A stretch of 64,000 nucleotides of DNA from Glycomyces tenuis DSM 44171 (GTDB lineage Bacteria > Actinomycetota > Actinomycetes > Mycobacteriales > Micromonosporaceae): assembly GCF_000427885.1 (NCBI RefSeq), contig NZ_ATYW01000004.1, positions 62,193-126,192 of the forward strand, in the 5' to 3' direction. How positions within the stretch are numbered: the first letter of the stretch is position 1; every line of letters starts with the position of its first letter. The notes beneath the pieces are model-generated. The model saw only the letters and a program-made list of their open reading frames with translations, did no database searches and was not told the DNA's origin. Of this stretch, positions 10,896 to 20,242 are shown in pieces. Made by a program: the position numbers and the translations under genes.

Positions 10896-11729
10896 GTGGA
10901 ACTCATTCACCGGGGCAAGGTCCGCGACGTCTACGCCGACGGGGGAGACCTCGTCCTCGTCGCCTCCAACCGCGTCAGCGTCTACGACACCGTCCTGCCC
11001 ACCGAGATCCCCGACAAGGGCGCGCTGCTGACCGCGCTGAGCCTGTGGTGGTTCGAGGCCCTCGGCGACCTCGTCCCCAACCACGTCGTCTCCGCCGACG
11101 ACGTGCCCGCCGAGTTCGCCGGGCGCGCCATCCGCGTCATGCGCCTCGACATGCTCCCCGTCGAGGCCGTCGCCCGCGGCTACCTCACCGGCTCCGGGCT
11201 CGCCGCCTACAACGCCACCGGCGCCGTCTGCGGCGTCGGCCTCCCCGGCGGACTGGTCGACGGCTCGAAGCTCCCCGAGCCGATCTTCACCCCCACCACC
11301 AAGGCGGCCGTGGGCGACCACGACGAGCCCATCACCTTCGAGCGGATGAAGGACGAGCTCGGGCCCGGGCCCGCCGAGCAGGTCCGCGACCTGACGCTGT
11401 CGGTCTACCGGCGCGGCGTCGAGGTGGCCGGTGAATGCGGCATCCTCATCGCCGACACGAAACTCGAGTTCGGCACCGACGCGGACGGCACGCTGCGCCT
11501 GGCCGACGAGATCCTCACCCCCGACTCCTCCCGCTTCTGGGACGCCGCCGGGTGGGAGCCGGGCCGCTCGCAGCCCTCCTTCGACAAGCAGTACGTGCGC
11601 GACTGGGCCCGCTCCACCGGCTGGAAGCCCGACGCCGGAGACCCGCCGGAGATCCCCGCCGAGGTCGTCGAGGCCACCCGCGGCCGCTACGTCGAGGCCT
11701 ACGAGCGCCTCACCGGGCGGCGCTGGTGA
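10896..11729 (+). CDS. purC: Phosphoribosylaminoimidazole-succinocarboxamide synthase (SAICAR synthase)
   Basis: The 277-residue enzyme joins CAIR with aspartate in purine synthesis. Recognisable elements are the start GKVRDVYADG, the substrate loop ARGYLTGSG, PIFTPTTKA, and the C-terminal IADTKLEFG and DEILTPDSSRFW, all in the usual order. GTG 10896 is preceded by AGGGAG at 5 nt spacing. The last 20 bp of the gene overlap the 3' end of a convergent histidine kinase gene. No other pur gene is in the window. Confidence 0.95.
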   Translation: MELIHRGKVRDVYADGGDLVLVASNRVSVYDTVLPTEIPDKGALLTALSLWWFEALGDLVPNHVVSADDVPAEFAGRAIRVMRLDMLPVEAVARGYLTGSGLAAYNATGAVCGVGLPGGLVDGSKLPEPIFTPTTKAAVGDHDEPITFERMKDELGPGPAEQVRDLTLSVYRRGVEVAGECGILIADTKLEFGTDADGTLRLADEILTPDSSRFWDAAGWEPGRSQPSFDKQYVRDWARSTGWKPDAGDPPEIPAEVVEATRGRYVEAYERLTGRRW

Positions 11730-12888
11730 CCCCGAGCGGCACCCGCAGCGCCAGCCGCCAGCCGCCGTCGCCGGTCGGGCCGTAGTCGAGGCGGCCGCCG
11801 AGCAGCTCGGCCCGCTGCCGCAGCCCCATCAAGCCGAACTGCGAGCTGGGCAGGTCGACCACCGGCCGCTGCGCGGCCGTGTTGACCACCTCGACGTCGA
11901 CGCCGTCGTCGTCGGCGCCGATGCGCACCGACGCCGCCGAGCCCGGAGCGTGCTTGCGGGCGTTGGTGAGCGCCTCCTGGACGGTGCGGTAGACCGCCCG
12001 CTGGAGCGGCGGTTCGAGCTCGGGGAGCGCCCCGACCTCCAGCTCCGCCTCGATGCCGCTGCCGCCGACGAGCGCTTCGAGCTGCCCGATCGTCGGCTGC
12101 GGCGCGAGCTCGGTGGTCTTGACTCCCGAGGCACGCAGCACCCGCACCATGTGGCGCAGCTCTTCGAGCGTGGTGACGCTGAGCCGGCGGATCGTCGAGG
12201 CCGCCTCCTTCGCCTCCCGGTCCTTCGTCTGCATCTGCCAGGCCCCGGCCTGCACGGCGATCAGGCTGACCTGGTGTGAGACGACATCGTGCATCTCGCG
12301 GGCGAGCTGGGCGCGCTCGGTGGCGAGCGCCTGCTGGGTCAGCAGCCGCTGCTCGTGCTCGCGCGCCTCGGTGATGTCCCGGAGCCGGTCGGCCAGGTCC
12401 CTGCGGGTCCGCTGGAGGTGGCCGAGGATCGCCGGGACGGCGGCGACGAGCAGGTAGTACAGGTGCCCGCGGATGGCGCCCTCGTTCTGGAACCCGTATT
12501 CGAACAGGGTCCCCACGCTGGTCTCGGACCCGTAGTGGTAGTCGAGCTCGTCCGCGATCCAATACGGCAGCCCCAGGTTCCAGAACGTGAAGCAGACGGT
12601 CAGCAGCGCGACGGCGGCGGCGGTGATCCACGGCCGCCGCGCCCGGTAGGCGAGGCAGTAGAGGGCGAGCATCGAGGCCACCTTCTCGCCGACCCACGCG
12701 GCCGGCGGCAGCGTGACCAGGAAGACCGTCAGCGGCGCCTGGCGGCGGAACAGCAGCGCGCCCACGGCGATGACCGCGAACGTCGCCAGCGGCTGGTTGT
12801 TCACGTCGATGACGAGCGCCAGGTGCACCGCGGCCACGGCCAGCACCACCGCGTCGTAGACCCACTGCGGCAGCGGCGGGAACCTCAT
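11710..12888 (-). CDS. Sensor histidine kinase (HisKA_3/NarL type)
   Basis: The 392-residue protein has four to five membrane helices in the first 160 residues, a coiled coil (EHEQRLLTQQALATERAQLA), the phospho-acceptor His in AREMHDVVSHQVSLIAVQAGA, an N box (VQEALTNARKHAPG) and a short ATP-binding end (FGLMGLRQRAELLGGRL). ATG 12888 overlaps the stop of the upstream response regulator as ATGA, so the pair is translationally coupled. The stimulus is not predictable. The convergent purC and this gene overlap by 20 bp, leaving no room for a terminator between them. Confidence 0.92.
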   Translation of the reverse strand: MRFPPLPQWVYDAVVLAVAAVHLALVIDVNNQPLATFAVIAVGALLFRRQAPLTVFLVTLPPAAWVGEKVASMLALYCLAYRARRPWITAAAVALLTVCFTFWNLGLPYWIADELDYHYGSETSVGTLFEYGFQNEGAIRGHLYYLLVAAVPAILGHLQRTRRDLADRLRDITEAREHEQRLLTQQALATERAQLAREMHDVVSHQVSLIAVQAGAWQMQTKDREAKEAASTIRRLSVTTLEELRHMVRVLRASGVKTTELAPQPTIGQLEALVGGSGIEAELEVGALPELEPPLQRAVYRTVQEALTNARKHAPGSAASVRIGADDDGVDVEVVNTAAQRPVVDLPSSQFGLMGLRQRAELLGGRLDYGPTGDGGWRLALRVPLGVTSAAR

Positions 12889-13541
12889 CGCTCCGGCTCC
12901 GCCCTGAGCAGTCCGGCGCGCTCGGCGATGAGCGCCGCCTGGACGCGGTTGGCGACCTCCAGCTTGGTCAGGATCGAGCTCACGTGGTCCTTGACGGTGC
13001 CGATGCCGAGGAAGACCTCGGCCGAGATCTCGCCGTTCGACTTCCCTTCGGCGAGCAGGGTGAGGATGCGGCGCTCGCGCTCGGTGAGCCGCTCGACGAG
13101 CGGGTCGGTCACCGAGCCCGCCGTGCTGGACAGGTATCCGGCGATGATCGTCCGGGCGACCTTGGCCGACAGCGCCGAGCCCTCGCTCATGAGTGACCGC
13201 ACCTGGTAGATGAGGTGCTCGGGGTCGGTGTCCTTGAGCAGGAACCCGGCGGCGCCGAGACGGAGCGCGGCGTCGACGTACTCGTCGGTGTCGAACGTGG
13301 TCAGCACCGAGGTGATCGGCGGCCGGGACAGGTCGCCCAGCCGTCTGAGGATGGTGAGCCCGTCGACGTCGGGCATGCGGATGTCGAGCAGCACCACGTC
13401 CGGCCGCAGCGCGATGATCTTGTCGATCGCCTCGCCGCCGGTGACGGCCGCGACCACCTCGATGTCGTCGGCGGTGCCGAGGATATGGGTGAAGCCCGAG
13501 CGTATGAGGGCTTCGTCGTCGACGATGAGCACGCGGATCAC
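12885..13541 (-). CDS. NarL/LuxR-type response regulator
   Basis: This 218-residue regulator has the receiver signature (VDDE, phospho-acceptor Asp in LLDIRMPD, LTTFDT, LLKDTD) and a C-terminal LuxR helix-turn-helix (LTERERRILTLLAEGKSNGEISAE). The start is GTG 13541, with AGGAG 8 nt upstream. It is the first gene of a two-gene operon with its kinase. A perfect inverted repeat lies just upstream and could be an autoregulatory site. Confidence 0.92.
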   Translation of the reverse strand: MIRVLIVDDEALIRSGFTHILGTADDIEVVAAVTGGEAIDKIIALRPDVVLLDIRMPDVDGLTILRRLGDLSRPPITSVLTTFDTDEYVDAALRLGAAGFLLKDTDPEHLIYQVRSLMSEGSALSAKVARTIIAGYLSSTAGSVTDPLVERLTERERRILTLLAEGKSNGEISAEVFLGIGTVKDHVSSILTKLEVANRVQAALIAERAGLLRAEPER

Positions 13542-15720: not shown

Positions 15721-18363
15721 TCAGGTTCGGAACAGGCCGTCCGCCACGAAGCCGCCTTCGGCGGCGCCCGGCGGGATCGCGAAGATCGCGCTGCCCTCGG
15801 CGACGATGAACTCCATCAGCCGGTCCGAGGCCGCCATCTTCTCCTGCGTCTCGATGAAGACCCCCGGGTCGGCCTGGAACGAGGCGAACAGCAGCCCGGC
15901 GTCGTACGGGTGTTCGTCGTGCCCGTGGTCCGCGGTGCCCGGCGCGTGCTCATGGGCGGCCGCGTCCGAGCTGACGTCGCCCTGCGTCAGGAAGCCGTAG
16001 TCGTAGTTGAAGCCGCGGCGGAACATGGCCGCCTCGTGCGTCAGCGCCAGGTGCGAGTCCGCCGGGACCGCGGGCAGGCCGTCGCCGCCGACCGCGGTGA
16101 AGTCCGGGTGGTCGAACTCCCCGCCGCCGCTCAGCGGCGCGCCGGAGTCCCTCTCACGCCCGAGCGTCAGGTTCTGCTCCTCGGCGCTGGCCATGCTCCA
16201 GGCCGGCAGCTTCATGCGGATCTTGCGGAACACCAGGTAGGTGCCGCCCGCGAACCAGTCCGGCTCCGAGTCGCTCGCCCACACGCGGGTGTCGAAGTCC
16301 GCGCTCCCCGGCTCGGGGTTGAGGCTCCCGTCCTTGAAGCCCATGAGGTTCCGCGGCGTCCCGCCGTCGGCGGGCGGCGAGGAGAAGCCCTGCTGGACCC
16401 ACCCGAGCGTGCCGAAGCCGACCGCGCGCTTGCGCAGTTCCAAGAACGCGTTGCTGACCACCTGGAGGTCGTCACCGCATATCTGGAGCAGCAGGTCCCC
16501 GCCGCACCAGGCGTCCTGGAGCCGGTCGCCGTCGAACTCCGGCAGCGCCTCCAGCTTCGCCGGGCGCGCCGCCTCCAGCCCCGTCTTCGCGAACAGCTCC
16601 GGCCCGAGGCCGAACGTCACCGTCAGCCGCGCCGGGTCGAGCCCGGCCGCGACGGCTTCGGCGTCGAACTGGTCGTCGCCGTCGATCGCGGCCTTCGGCG
16701 GCTCCTGGCCGCTCGCCAGTGCCGCGGCCACCGCCGACCAGTCGGACAGCAGCGCCCGCAGGTCGTCCGCCGAGACGCCCTCGGCCAGATCGAACGAGGC
16801 GAACAGCGCGTGGCGCTGGATCGCGGTCTCGACGCCGCTCTGGTGCTCGCCGTAGAACGGCTCGGGCGCCGTGCCGTGCGCGTGGCCCTCCTCGGGATGC
16901 TCGTGGTTCCCGCCGATCACGTATCCGGCGCCGCCCGCGACCGCGGCCGTGGCCGCCGCCGCGCCGAGCGCCGTGCGGCGCGAGACGCCCTCACCAGAGC
17001 GATCCTCGGCATCGGGTCGGCGGCGCCGCCACCATCCGAGCAGGACGTCGACGGCGAGGAACACCGCGAGCGAGATCCCCAGCAGCGGAAAGAACCAGCC
17101 GACGACGGCCACCACCGGCACCGCGGCGGCCACCGCGGGCCACGGCAGGCGCCGCAGCGAGCCGGGCGGGTACGGACGGCCCACGACCGCGTCCTTCGCG
17201 CGCCGCTGCCACCACATCCGGTACCCCAGCACGATCAAGGCGACCAGCGCGGCCATCGAAGCGAACAGCACCACCTGGTTCGCGAGTCCGAACAGGATCC
17301 CCCTGTGCGCGGCGATGAGCACGTTCGTCGCCTGCGCCATGAACGGCCAGTCCTCGAAGCGGAGCTCCTCTGCCACCTCCGGCTCGCCGCTCGCCGTCGC
17401 GATCACGGCCGTGTCCTGCTGCACCGGATAGGACCGCTGCGTCTCCGCGACGAGGAACTCGCCGCTCTCGCCGGTCGGCAGCGTGATCTCAAGGGGCCCT
17501 TCGAAACCGGCGTCCACCGCCGCATCGTGGACGCCGTCGAGCAGCGTCAGGTCGAACGCCGAGGCCCCGTGGTCGTGGTGACCGGCGTGGCCCTCGTGCG
17601 CGGCGTGCTCCCCGGCGTCGGCCGACAGCGTCGGCGTCTGCCAGCCCAGCGTCTCCCGGAGCGAGGCGACGTTCTCCCCGGCGAACCGCGACCACGTCAC
17701 GCCCGTCACCGACAGGAACAGCAGCACCAGCACCAGCCACATGCCGAGCGGCGCGTGCCACGACAGCGACCCCGCCCGGCCCTCTCGGCGAGGTCTGCGC
17801 GGCCACAGCAGCCCGCCCGGGCGCCGCCTGCGGCTCAACCACAGCGCGACGCCGCCGAGCGCGACCACCCACAGCCAGCTCGCCGCGAGCTCGCTGTAGA
17901 CCCGTCCCGGCTCGCCCAGGTGCAGGTGCCGGTGCAGCGAGGTGGCCCACTCACGGAACGGACCGGCCTGCGAGGAGCCGTACGACGTCGAATCGCCCAG
18001 CACCTCGCCGGTGTACGGGTCGACGAACACGACCGGGACCGCGCCGGACTCGCGGACGGGCCCGGCGAGCAGGACCTGCGTCGAGTCCTCGGGCCCGGCG
18101 CCGGTCCGGACGCCGGTCACCGTCGCCTCCGGGTAGGCCCCGGCGACGGCCTGGACCTGCTTGTTCAGCGTCAACGGCTCGCCGCCGGACGCCTCGACGG
18201 TCCGCAGGTCCCGGTATATGGCGTCCTCCACCTGGTAGGACGCCGCGTAGAGCATCCCCGAGACCGCCGCGACGAGCAGGAACGGGGCTATGAGGATCCC
18301 GGCGTAGAAATGCAGCCGGAGGAGGAGCTGCCGCGCGGCAGCCCAAGAACGTTCTTTGGACAT
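15721..18363 (-). CDS. PepSY-type membrane module fused to a DyP-type (EfeB-like) haem peroxidase
   Basis: One uninterrupted 880-residue frame joins two normally separate proteins. Residues 1-385 are a PepSY-associated membrane protein: membrane helices near 20-42, 160-177, 205-223 and 356-380, SLHRHLHLG at 142-150, and a His-rich loop at 252-265. Two more helices follow (about 407-445). A twin-arginine-like RRTALGAAAATAA segment at 462-473 with a hydrophobic run leads to residues 510-875, a DyP peroxidase with GFKDG at 675-679, the proximal-type His771 (ADSHLAL) and RRG at 782-784. A second His-rich insert lies at 804-818 inside the peroxidase. EfeB-type enzymes act outside the membrane on haem; PepSY membrane proteins are linked to iron or copper handling. 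Joint metal or haem processing is inferred. It follows a His-containing membrane-protein gene after 63 bp. Confidence 0.85.
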   Translation of the reverse strand: MSKERSWAAARQLLLRLHFYAGILIAPFLLVAAVSGMLYAASYQVEDAIYRDLRTVEASGGEPLTLNKQVQAVAGAYPEATVTGVRTGAGPEDSTQVLLAGPVRESGAVPVVFVDPYTGEVLGDSTSYGSSQAGPFREWATSLHRHLHLGEPGRVYSELAASWLWVVALGGVALWLSRRRRPGGLLWPRRPRREGRAGSLSWHAPLGMWLVLVLLFLSVTGVTWSRFAGENVASLRETLGWQTPTLSADAGEHAAHEGHAGHHDHGASAFDLTLLDGVHDAAVDAGFEGPLEITLPTGESGEFLVAETQRSYPVQQDTAVIATASGEPEVAEELRFEDWPFMAQATNVLIAAHRGILFGLANQVVLFASMAALVALIVLGYRMWWQRRAKDAVVGRPYPPGSLRRLPWPAVAAAVPVVAVVGWFFPLLGISLAVFLAVDVLLGWWRRRRPDAEDRSGEGVSRRTALGAAAATAAVAGGAGYVIGGNHEHPEEGHAHGTAPEPFYGEHQSGVETAIQRHALFASFDLAEGVSADDLRALLSDWSAVAAALASGQEPPKAAIDGDDQFDAEAVAAGLDPARLTVTFGLGPELFAKTGLEAARPAKLEALPEFDGDRLQDAWCGGDLLLQICGDDLQVVSNAFLELRKRAVGFGTLGWVQQGFSSPPADGGTPRNLMGFKDGSLNPEPGSADFDTRVWASDSEPDWFAGGTYLVFRKIRMKLPAWSMASAEEQNLTLGRERDSGAPLSGGGEFDHPDFTAVGGDGLPAVPADSHLALTHEAAMFRRGFNYDYGFLTQGDVSSDAAAHEHAPGTADHGHDEHPYDAGLLFASFQADPGVFIETQEKMAASDRLMEFIVAEGSAIFAIPPGAAEGGFVADGLFRT

Positions 18364-18426: not shown

Positions 18427-18954
18427 TCAGAGAGCGAAGACGGGAGGACCGCGATTGGAGATCGCGGTCGCGAGCGGCTCGAGCGAGCGCAGCCGCCGCG
18501 TGCGGGGACGGAACGCGCGCCGGAAGACCGGGACGCGGGCCCGGGCGAGACGCGGGCGCACCGCCCGCGCCAGGAACAGCGTGAGGAGGTCGAGCAGCGC
18601 GGCCAGGCCGGCCTCGCCGCGCGCCAGCCAGGACGCCTGGGCGAGCGCGGCGACCACGTGGACCAGCAGCATGCTCACGCCGGCGCCGTGGTCGTGCGGG
18701 GCCGCGCCGGCCGAGAAGCACTCGTGGAGTCCCCATTGGGCGGCCAGGCACAGCGGCGCCAGAGCGGCGAAACCGCGCTGGCGGCCTCCGGCGGCGACGC
18801 CGCCGGCGAAGACGAGTGCGAGGCCGGCGGCGAAGAACTCCGGCCGCGGCGCCGCCCCGCCGCCCCAGATGTGGAGCAGTGCCGAGGCCGAGACCGTGAC
18901 CGCCGCGAACACGGTGGCCCGCAGCAGTCGGAACGGAATCTGCCTCACCTGCAT
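18427..18954 (-). CDS. Small integral membrane protein with conserved-looking His, partner of the PepSY-DyP gene
   Basis: The 175-residue protein has four to five membrane helices and a basic cytoplasmic tail rich in arginine. Histidines stand at or near helix ends: LLHIWGG, QWGLHECFSAGAAPHDHG and LLVHVVAA. I do not assign a family with certainty; proteins of this look accompany copper- or iron-handling genes in actinobacteria. It is the first gene of a probable two-gene unit with the PepSY-DyP fusion, 63 bp apart, so a metal-related membrane function is a reasonable inference. Confidence 0.7.
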   Translation of the reverse strand: MQVRQIPFRLLRATVFAAVTVSASALLHIWGGGAAPRPEFFAAGLALVFAGGVAAGGRQRGFAALAPLCLAAQWGLHECFSAGAAPHDHGAGVSMLLVHVVAALAQASWLARGEAGLAALLDLLTLFLARAVRPRLARARVPVFRRAFRPRTRRLRSLEPLATAISNRGPPVFAL

Positions 18955-19030
18955 TGGCGTATTGTGTCACGGCGCCCCGCGGCGGCGGTACGCCCGTATC
19001 GGAAAGCCGACACGGGCGCACCGCCTCCTC

Positions 19031-20242
19031 TCACGCGGTGCGCTTGCGCCCGTATGTGAGCCGCCGCAGCAGCACCTCGAACGGCCCGCGCCTGCCGGCC
19101 TTGTCCATGAGCACGGCCAGCGCCACGGTGACCGCCCACGTCCCGAAGGCGATGCCGTAGGCGCCCAGGTAGCCCACGTGCGCGCCGACGCCGAGGCCCC
19201 AGGCGGACAGCAGCGGCGCCATGATGATCGACTGGAGCAGGTAGCTCGTCAGCGAGCGCTCGCCGACGGCGGCGAAGGCCCCGGGCAGGCCGCGGCGGCT
19301 CTTGGCGCGCCAGCGGTGCGCCAGCAGTGCGAAGCCGCAGATGTAGCCGAGCCCGGCGTACATGCCGCCGAGCAGCGTCAGGTACATCGCCGAGACGAAC
19401 AGGAATGTCGGCGGCTCCCACACGCCGAGGCCGACGAGCGCGACCGGCAGGGCGCTGAGGACGTTCACGACCATGCCCGAGACGAAGACCTTCCGCAGCC
19501 CCGGCAGGTGCTCCTCGGGGTGGTCGATCCAGCCGGAGCGCTGGAGCATCATGCCGATGAGCACGAGCGGGACGAACAGGCCCAAGACCGTGAAGACCGT
19601 GGTGAACCCGATCGACACGGCGGCGCCGAAGACCATCTGCACGGCGTAGTTCGACAGCTCGTCGGTGCCGCCGGTGTTGCCGCTGTTGCCGCTGTACGCC
19701 CACGCGAAGATCGGGAGCGAGACGACCACGACGACGACCGAGGACCCGATCAGCCAGCGCCGCAGCGCCCTGTCCGAGAGGTGCACGAAGCCGAGCGCGA
19801 TGAGCCCGGTGGCGCCGTAGGGCGCGAGGATGTCGCCGAAGAACAGGAAGGTGGCGTGGATGAAGCCGAACAGGATCAGCCACCAGGAGCGGCGGCGCAG
19901 GACCTTGCGGACGCCCTTGGGGTCCATGCCGCGGGCGAACATACGCGAGGCCATGACGGCGATGCCGAAGCCGTAGAGGATCGCGAACATCGGCCGCGAG
20001 CGCTCGGCGGCGAGCAGCTTCTCGAAGAACAGTGCGATGTGGTCGGCCGTCGTGGAGTCGGTGAAGTGGCCGTAGGAATCGATGCCGCTGCCGTGCACGT
20101 AGATCGCGACGTTCGCGATCGCGATGAACAGCAGCATGCCGCCGCGGGCGATGTCGGGCGCGAGCGAGCGCTCGGCCTTCGTGATGGAGCTCGGCGGGCC
20201 GAGCTGCGCAGGAGTGGTCCCCTGTGTGGAGGAGACTGGCAT
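19031..20242 (-). CDS. DUF418 (YeiB-like) membrane protein
   Basis: The 403-residue protein starts with the DUF418 signature (LAPDIARGGMLLFIAIANV), continues with FAILYGFG and WLILFGFIHA and has around ten membrane helices. The last third contains the typical RSLTSYLLQSIIMAPL segment. Members are suspected transporters or acyl-transferase-like membrane proteins with no proven role. ATG 20242 has GGAGC at suitable spacing. It is separated from its left neighbour on the same strand by about 75 bp. Confidence 0.88.
   Translation of the reverse strand: MPVSSTQGTTPAQLGPPSSITKAERSLAPDIARGGMLLFIAIANVAIYVHGSGIDSYGHFTDSTTADHIALFFEKLLAAERSRPMFAILYGFGIAVMASRMFARGMDPKGVRKVLRRRSWWLILFGFIHATFLFFGDILAPYGATGLIALGFVHLSDRALRRWLIGSSVVVVVVSLPIFAWAYSGNSGNTGGTDELSNYAVQMVFGAAVSIGFTTVFTVLGLFVPLVLIGMMLQRSGWIDHPEEHLPGLRKVFVSGMVVNVLSALPVALVGLGVWEPPTFLFVSAMYLTLLGGMYAGLGYICGFALLAHRWRAKSRRGLPGAFAAVGERSLTSYLLQSIIMAPLLSAWGLGVGAHVGYLGAYGIAFGTWAVTVALAVLMDKAGRRGPFEVLLRRLTYGRKRTA

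Follow-up and report, generated by a model that had tools for sequence, protein, structure and literature searches.

A single-chain fusion of a FoxB-like PepSY_TM membrane module and an A-type DyP peroxidase in Glycomyces

Described relatives of the two protein families considered here already touch on copper and on export. DtpA is a DyP-type peroxidase of a copper pathway and a Tat substrate (PMC4736821), and a PepSY_TM protein may also act in the service of copper enzymes, as work on CrpH suggests (PMC13038864). A further relevant pattern is that of membrane proteins inserted by both Sec and Tat, which have an even number of Sec helices, a conserved twin arginine (RR), a weakly hydrophobic helix and a cofactor domain (PMC5449189); the main text of that paper names Rieske, molybdenum cofactor, polyferredoxin and YkuE families, and the words "peroxidase" and "PepSY" do not appear in it. 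The physiological function of bacterial DyPs is described as largely unknown (PMC11107159). We analysed a gene in a 64,000-nucleotide stretch of the Glycomyces tenuis DSM 44171 genome (the whole stretch is referred to as the window) that the original prediction had presented as one 880-residue frame holding both families.

The frame is intact in the window (Table 1). Pfam assigned PepSY_TM to residues 15–387 (E 4e-68), Dyp_perox_N to residues 508–660 (E 4e-27) and Dyp_perox_C to residues 669–867 (E 1e-31), and all three matches were far above the curated cut-offs. The same fused frame was recovered from 16 Glycomyces loci in independent assemblies (one pair identical), at ∼66%–71% identity, and a search of sampled Glycomyces genomes gave 68%–71%; the alignment used below comprises 17 proteins, of which 16 are distinct. 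Many long spurious frames arise in high-GC DNA, and an assembly artefact with a stop between the domains had been named from the outset as one outcome that would undo the idea. However, no stop interrupts the frame, both domains share it with scores far over their cut-offs, and the 16 loci with the fusion have kept their catalytic residues. An assembly artefact is excluded because these independent loci have the same fused frame, and we put the chance that the fusion reflects either such an artefact or random read-through at practically nil. The 880-residue frame is a real, single gene, as originally proposed.

Table 1. Features of the fusion locus, with positions numbered from the first nucleotide of the window
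Feature	Position	Strand	Details
PepSY_TM–DyP fusion gene	15721..18363	-	880 aa; one uninterrupted frame; ATG start
A-type DyP peroxidase domain, residues 508–878	15730..16842	-	PF04261 and PF20628; TIGR01413 above cut-off; fold match; D678 (GFKDG), H771, R783
C-terminal His-rich insert, residues 804–818	15910..15954	-	H806, H815, H818 invariant
Third His-rich stretch, residues 486–497	16873..16908	-	Alignment; in some species only
Internal twin-arginine segment and weakly hydrophobic helix, residues 462–485	16909..16980	-	RR invariant; low hydrophobicity; helix in model
PepSY_TM membrane module (predicted dihaem), residues 15–387	17203..18321	-	PF03929; invariant H18, H144, H203, H353; FoxB fold match
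His-rich loop in second PepSY ectodomain, residues 252–266	17566..17610	-	Sequence, alignment; model pLDDT <50
175-aa His-containing membrane protein, family unnamed	18427..18954	-	Upstream of fusion, 63-bp gap; no Pfam match
GTGACACAATAC-like element immediately ahead of the 175-aa gene	18959..18970	-	Conserved in most orthologous upstream regions; single copy in window
DUF418 membrane protein	19031..20242	-	Next gene; kept in nearly all fusion loci

An N-terminal multi-helix PepSY module joined to a DyP in one chain had been foreseen, and PF03929 and the Dyp_perox domains do lie in the same frame. The PF03929 score was 230.8 bits, compared with a gathering threshold of 28.8 bits. When the PepSY half was modelled (mean pLDDT 83), FoxB was its only significant fold match (Foldseek probability 1.00, E 2.6e-11), with a moderate TM-score of 0.38–0.44. 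Five histidines of this half (H18, H144, H148, H203 and H353) are invariant in the 17 aligned fusions (16 distinct). H18, H144, H203 and H353 are also invariant across 34 PepSY modules, among them unfused relatives with as little as 40% identity, and all four align with histidines of FoxB (PDB 7abw). By position, helices 1 and 3 carry H18 and H203 at their cytoplasmic ends, and helices 2 and 4 carry H144 and H353 at their outer ends. We infer from this placement a FoxB-like dihaem wire with two ligands on each side of the membrane, and haem is likewise predicted to be present in the PepSY half. Two His-rich inserts, 252–265 and 804–818, had been pointed out at the start; both are present (the first as 252–266, with H256 and H259 invariant in the 17 aligned fusions), but the list had missed a third stretch at residues 486–497.

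The C-terminal half carries the hallmarks of an A-type DyP. D678 (within GFKDG), H771 and R783 are invariant in the same alignment of 17 fusions (16 distinct, ∼66%–71% identity), the NCBIfam model of the Dyp_perox superfamily (TIGR01413) scores above its cut-off, and the DyP domain of the full-length model matches T. curvata DyP (TcDyP) and DtpA with TM-scores of 0.89–0.90. This half is predicted to have peroxidase activity. The original prediction had mentioned EfeB-type enzymes as known separate polypeptides, and an EfeB identity for this half did not survive: the score against the EfeB equivalog (TIGR01412) was 343.1 bits, below the cut-off of 428 bits, the domain falls outside the FTR1-linked EfeB clade, and five genomes contain, in addition to it, a true EfeB next to EfeU. 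Those genomes are the ones with EfeUOB-type clusters (FTR1, an imelysin with a cupredoxin-like domain, and an own DyP; loci L079–L082 and L125) among 21 Glycomyces genomes; these clusters are independent of the fusion, and all five genomes also have the fusion, the DyP that adjoins FTR1 being a second, separate one. Of the 16 fusion genomes, 11 lack EfeU (FTR1), the window's own included. All sequence and fold features tested place each half of the protein in a known family.

The two halves meet at an internal twin-arginine segment, another feature that had been noticed originally and that proved conserved: R462-R463 lies in an S/T-R-R-T/A-A-L motif and is invariant in 17 out of 17 aligned proteins. 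Six hydrophobic helices precede the RR motif, both in the hydrophobicity of the orthologues and in the full-length model (mean pLDDT 84, pTM 0.63, with the placement of the domains relative to each other uncertain). In every orthologue, the helix after the motif falls below both helix 1 and the immediately preceding helix in hydrophobicity. This predicted topology, six Sec helices and then a weakly hydrophobic Tat helix, adds the protein to the candidates for dual Sec/Tat insertion, in which export of the DyP would depend on Tat. The linker is highly variable in sequence and modelled with a pLDDT <50. An A-[IV]-A motif, a possible cleavage site, ends the Tat helix in 10 out of 16 orthologues; the window species and five others are without A-x-A, and the window protein has a His-rich NHEHPEEGHAHG stretch in its place. 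Unfused DyPs of the same subgroup begin with a similar Tat signal, and the fusion therefore probably joined two complete genes, with the Tat signal of the DyP retained. Glycomyces is a Gram-positive actinobacterium of soil, so the "outer membrane face" at which the peroxidase had been placed can mean only the outer face of the cytoplasmic membrane, and in that sense the topology predicts the same location.

Judged by open-frame length, the fusion is present in 16 of 21 sampled Glycomyces genomes (two of them, G779 and G782, counted on frame length alone), and every locus checked lay at the same chromosomal site. Genome samples at the family, order, class and phylum levels yielded no fused copy outside Glycomyces; these broad surveys scored only the top two or three candidates in each genome, which a very diverged fusion could escape, and the taxa that they covered belonged almost entirely to Actinomycetota. 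In the flanks of the best PepSY hits, DyP occurred only as separate genes. The layout had been suspected to be rare, and among the genomes searched it is found in Glycomyces alone. The open-access literature yielded no paper on a PepSY–DyP fusion, and neither a dual Sec/Tat haem peroxidase nor the idea of PepSY_TM as a DyP donor was found there.

The fusion arose once. In a tree of DyPs, the fused halves group in a single clade whose closest neighbours are free DyPs of other actinobacteria; the PCuAC-linked DyPs and the Glycomyces EfeBs both lie elsewhere. A single clade likewise unites the PepSY halves (SH-aLRT 80), and its sister is the unfused PepSY of genome G783. That protein (514 aa, 64% identity) is encoded at the site of the fusion, with purC on one side and the DUF418/fabF genes on the other, and G783 also has a separate PCuAC–DyP–CopC cluster. 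In G069, G136, G149 and G780, the site holds neither a PepSY gene nor the fusion. Direct descent from PCuAC-linked PepSY–DyP gene pairs was rejected since both halves lie in other clades. A candidate fusion and two adjacent gene pairs were dismissed: a Microbacterium plasmid with both domains within 2.3 kb encodes a PCuAC–DyP and then a separate, interrupted PepSY reading, and in loci L141 (394–2811) and L152 (1525–3989) DyP and PepSY_TM almost abut without forming one open frame. The gene order in the latter two loci, which come from other actinobacterial families, is DyP–PepSY, the reverse of the order in the fusion.

PepSY and DyP are also neighbours as separate genes, lying within ∼8 kb of each other in at least 13 genomes of the wider family. 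The copper chaperone PCuAC often accompanies such pairs in other actinobacteria. In the clusters read out, genes for PCuAC, CopC, CopD/CtaG and DUF1775 surround the unfused pair, and a Rhodococcus plasmid carries PepSY–PCuAC–DyP alongside a gene for cytochrome oxidase assembly, one for a CopY-family regulator and, farther off, CtaA. Full-length PCuAC occurs in three of 21 Glycomyces genomes, each time adjoining a DyP and never with the fusion, and the 16 fusion genomes gave no full-length PCuAC match. Fusion and PCuAC–DyP are thus mutually exclusive in these 21 genomes (16 versus 3, overlap 0), a pattern that spans few lineages and for which one event could account. A weak PCuAC hit in the window's own genome (L086) was set aside as a lipoprotein-like gene beside a CarD-like gene with no copper cluster; other weak hits in fusion genomes are the same partial match, L086 being the one inspected. 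We also rejected, for the genus, a role in GlxA maturation: Sco is absent from 21 out of 21 Glycomyces genomes, and a galactose-oxidase-type (GlxA-like) domain was found only in the window's genome (L158, contig C40).

Next to the fusion itself there is no copper gene, and no conserved siderophore or iron transporter lies beside it in the fusion loci. Genes for relatives of the adjacent 175-aa protein immediately precede unfused PepSY_TM genes in several groups of actinobacteria, and they also lie upstream of the PCuAC–DyP pair in G069, G780 and G783; the protein may therefore be an unnamed copper-handling component. The GTGACACAATAC-like element ahead of its gene is a possible promoter (possibly leaderless) or operator, and the DUF418 gene is possibly in the same operon as the fusion. 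A PHROGs comparison gave nothing useful. Elsewhere in the window, 11710–13541 (minus strand) holds a response-regulator gene (12885–13541) next to a histidine-kinase-like reading of the same strand. The original suggestion of a "haem/iron or copper system" can be narrowed in part: gene association points to copper as the most likely substrate, and haem or iron processing is less favoured by context. Transfer of a copper function is not secure because both fused halves fall outside the clades of the PCuAC clusters.

Our main reading, to which we assign a probability of about 0.5, is that a single, selectively maintained fusion sets a dihaem conduit to feed or partner an extracytoplasmic DyP, most likely in copper handling. 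A PepSY_TM dihaem reductase of the FoxB/CrpH type would have been joined once to an A-type DyP that kept its own Tat signal. The six helices would insert via Sec, and Tat would export the folded, haem-loaded DyP, with the Tat helix as helix 7. Electrons would pass through the PepSY module from a cytoplasmic-side haem (H18/H203) to an outer haem (H144/H353). Their acceptor on the outer side would be either a metal, with copper the most likely one, or the haem of the adjoining DyP. The DyP half would consume peroxide beside the PepSY module, and the His-rich loops would hold metal. Electron flow between the two halves may occur. A bolder proposal, which we regard as tentative and rather doubtful, is a self-sufficient transmembrane peroxidase with three haems, in which electrons from the cell would run via the PepSY dihaem into the DyP haem and reduce peroxide outside. 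If this were true, PepSY_TM cytochromes would be the missing physiological electron donors of bacterial DyPs, and this would extend to cases in which separate neighbouring genes encode the two.

The metal might instead be iron, with the PepSY half freeing it from ferric siderophores and the DyP re-oxidizing Fe(II) or acting on haem. Such a protein would be a one-chain analogue of the yeast reductase–ferroxidase pair; FoxB reduces ferric siderophores, the characterized PepSY_TM proteins are mostly ferrisiderophore reductases, and EfeB belongs to the A-type DyPs. We consider an iron function unlikely, however, given that EfeU is missing from most fusion genomes (11/16, the window's own among them), that it is adjoined by its own DyP where present, that the fused DyP lies under the EfeB cut-off and outside the EfeB clade, and that the fusion has no conserved siderophore or iron transporter beside it. 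The halves could also be independent of each other, the join serving to co-express or co-localize them, with the DyP cleaved past the Tat helix in some species. The A-[IV]-A motifs of 10/16 orthologues and the variable linker of low pLDDT would fit such a tether, but every orthologue keeps the fused frame, the window species and five others have no A-x-A motif, and PepSY and DyP genes are repeatedly paired elsewhere; we think it unlikely.

To our knowledge, the natural reductant of bacterial DyPs is unsettled. The genus-wide fusion, together with the repeated PepSY–DyP pairing in other actinobacteria, names a concrete DyP partner, here within one protein, and hints at the electron source of DyP-type peroxidases. 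It also offers a further candidate for handover from Sec to Tat, with a haem enzyme as the cargo.

Several described systems resemble parts of this protein. FoxB and other PepSY_TM (PiuB/COG3182) reductases have in common with it PF03929, four histidines of the haem-ligand type, two ectodomains and a FoxB-like fold, whereas the Glycomyces protein adds two helices past the core, a His-rich loop and the fused DyP. CrpH of Bordetella pertussis is a PepSY_TM protein with histidines at the FoxB positions and a copper context (PMC13038864); unlike the fusion, it has no peroxidase domain described. DtpA/SCO3963, DtpAa and T. curvata DyP share the catalytic D/H/R and the fold (TM ∼0.89) with the fused DyP but are free secreted proteins, whereas the fused DyP sits after six helices and is distinguished by its His-rich C-terminal insert. 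The fusion does not show the co-occurrence with Sco and a GlxA-type oxidase that would go with the DtpA–GlxA copper pathway (Sco, ECuC, DtpA, GlxA). EfeB/YwbN of EfeUOB is of the same superfamily, but the fused DyP is below the equivalog cut-off, has no EfeU link and forms a separate clade. In another group of systems, which includes a fused MsrQ–FMN-bind protein, transmembrane b haems serve an outer redox partner, a likeness to the fusion, in which the outer partner is a haem peroxidase and not a flavin domain. Finally, the dual Sec/Tat proteins (actinobacterial Rieske, Sco3746 and polyferredoxin; PMC5449189) share that sequence pattern with the fusion, which differs in that its predicted cargo is a haem peroxidase and that six helices precede the RR.
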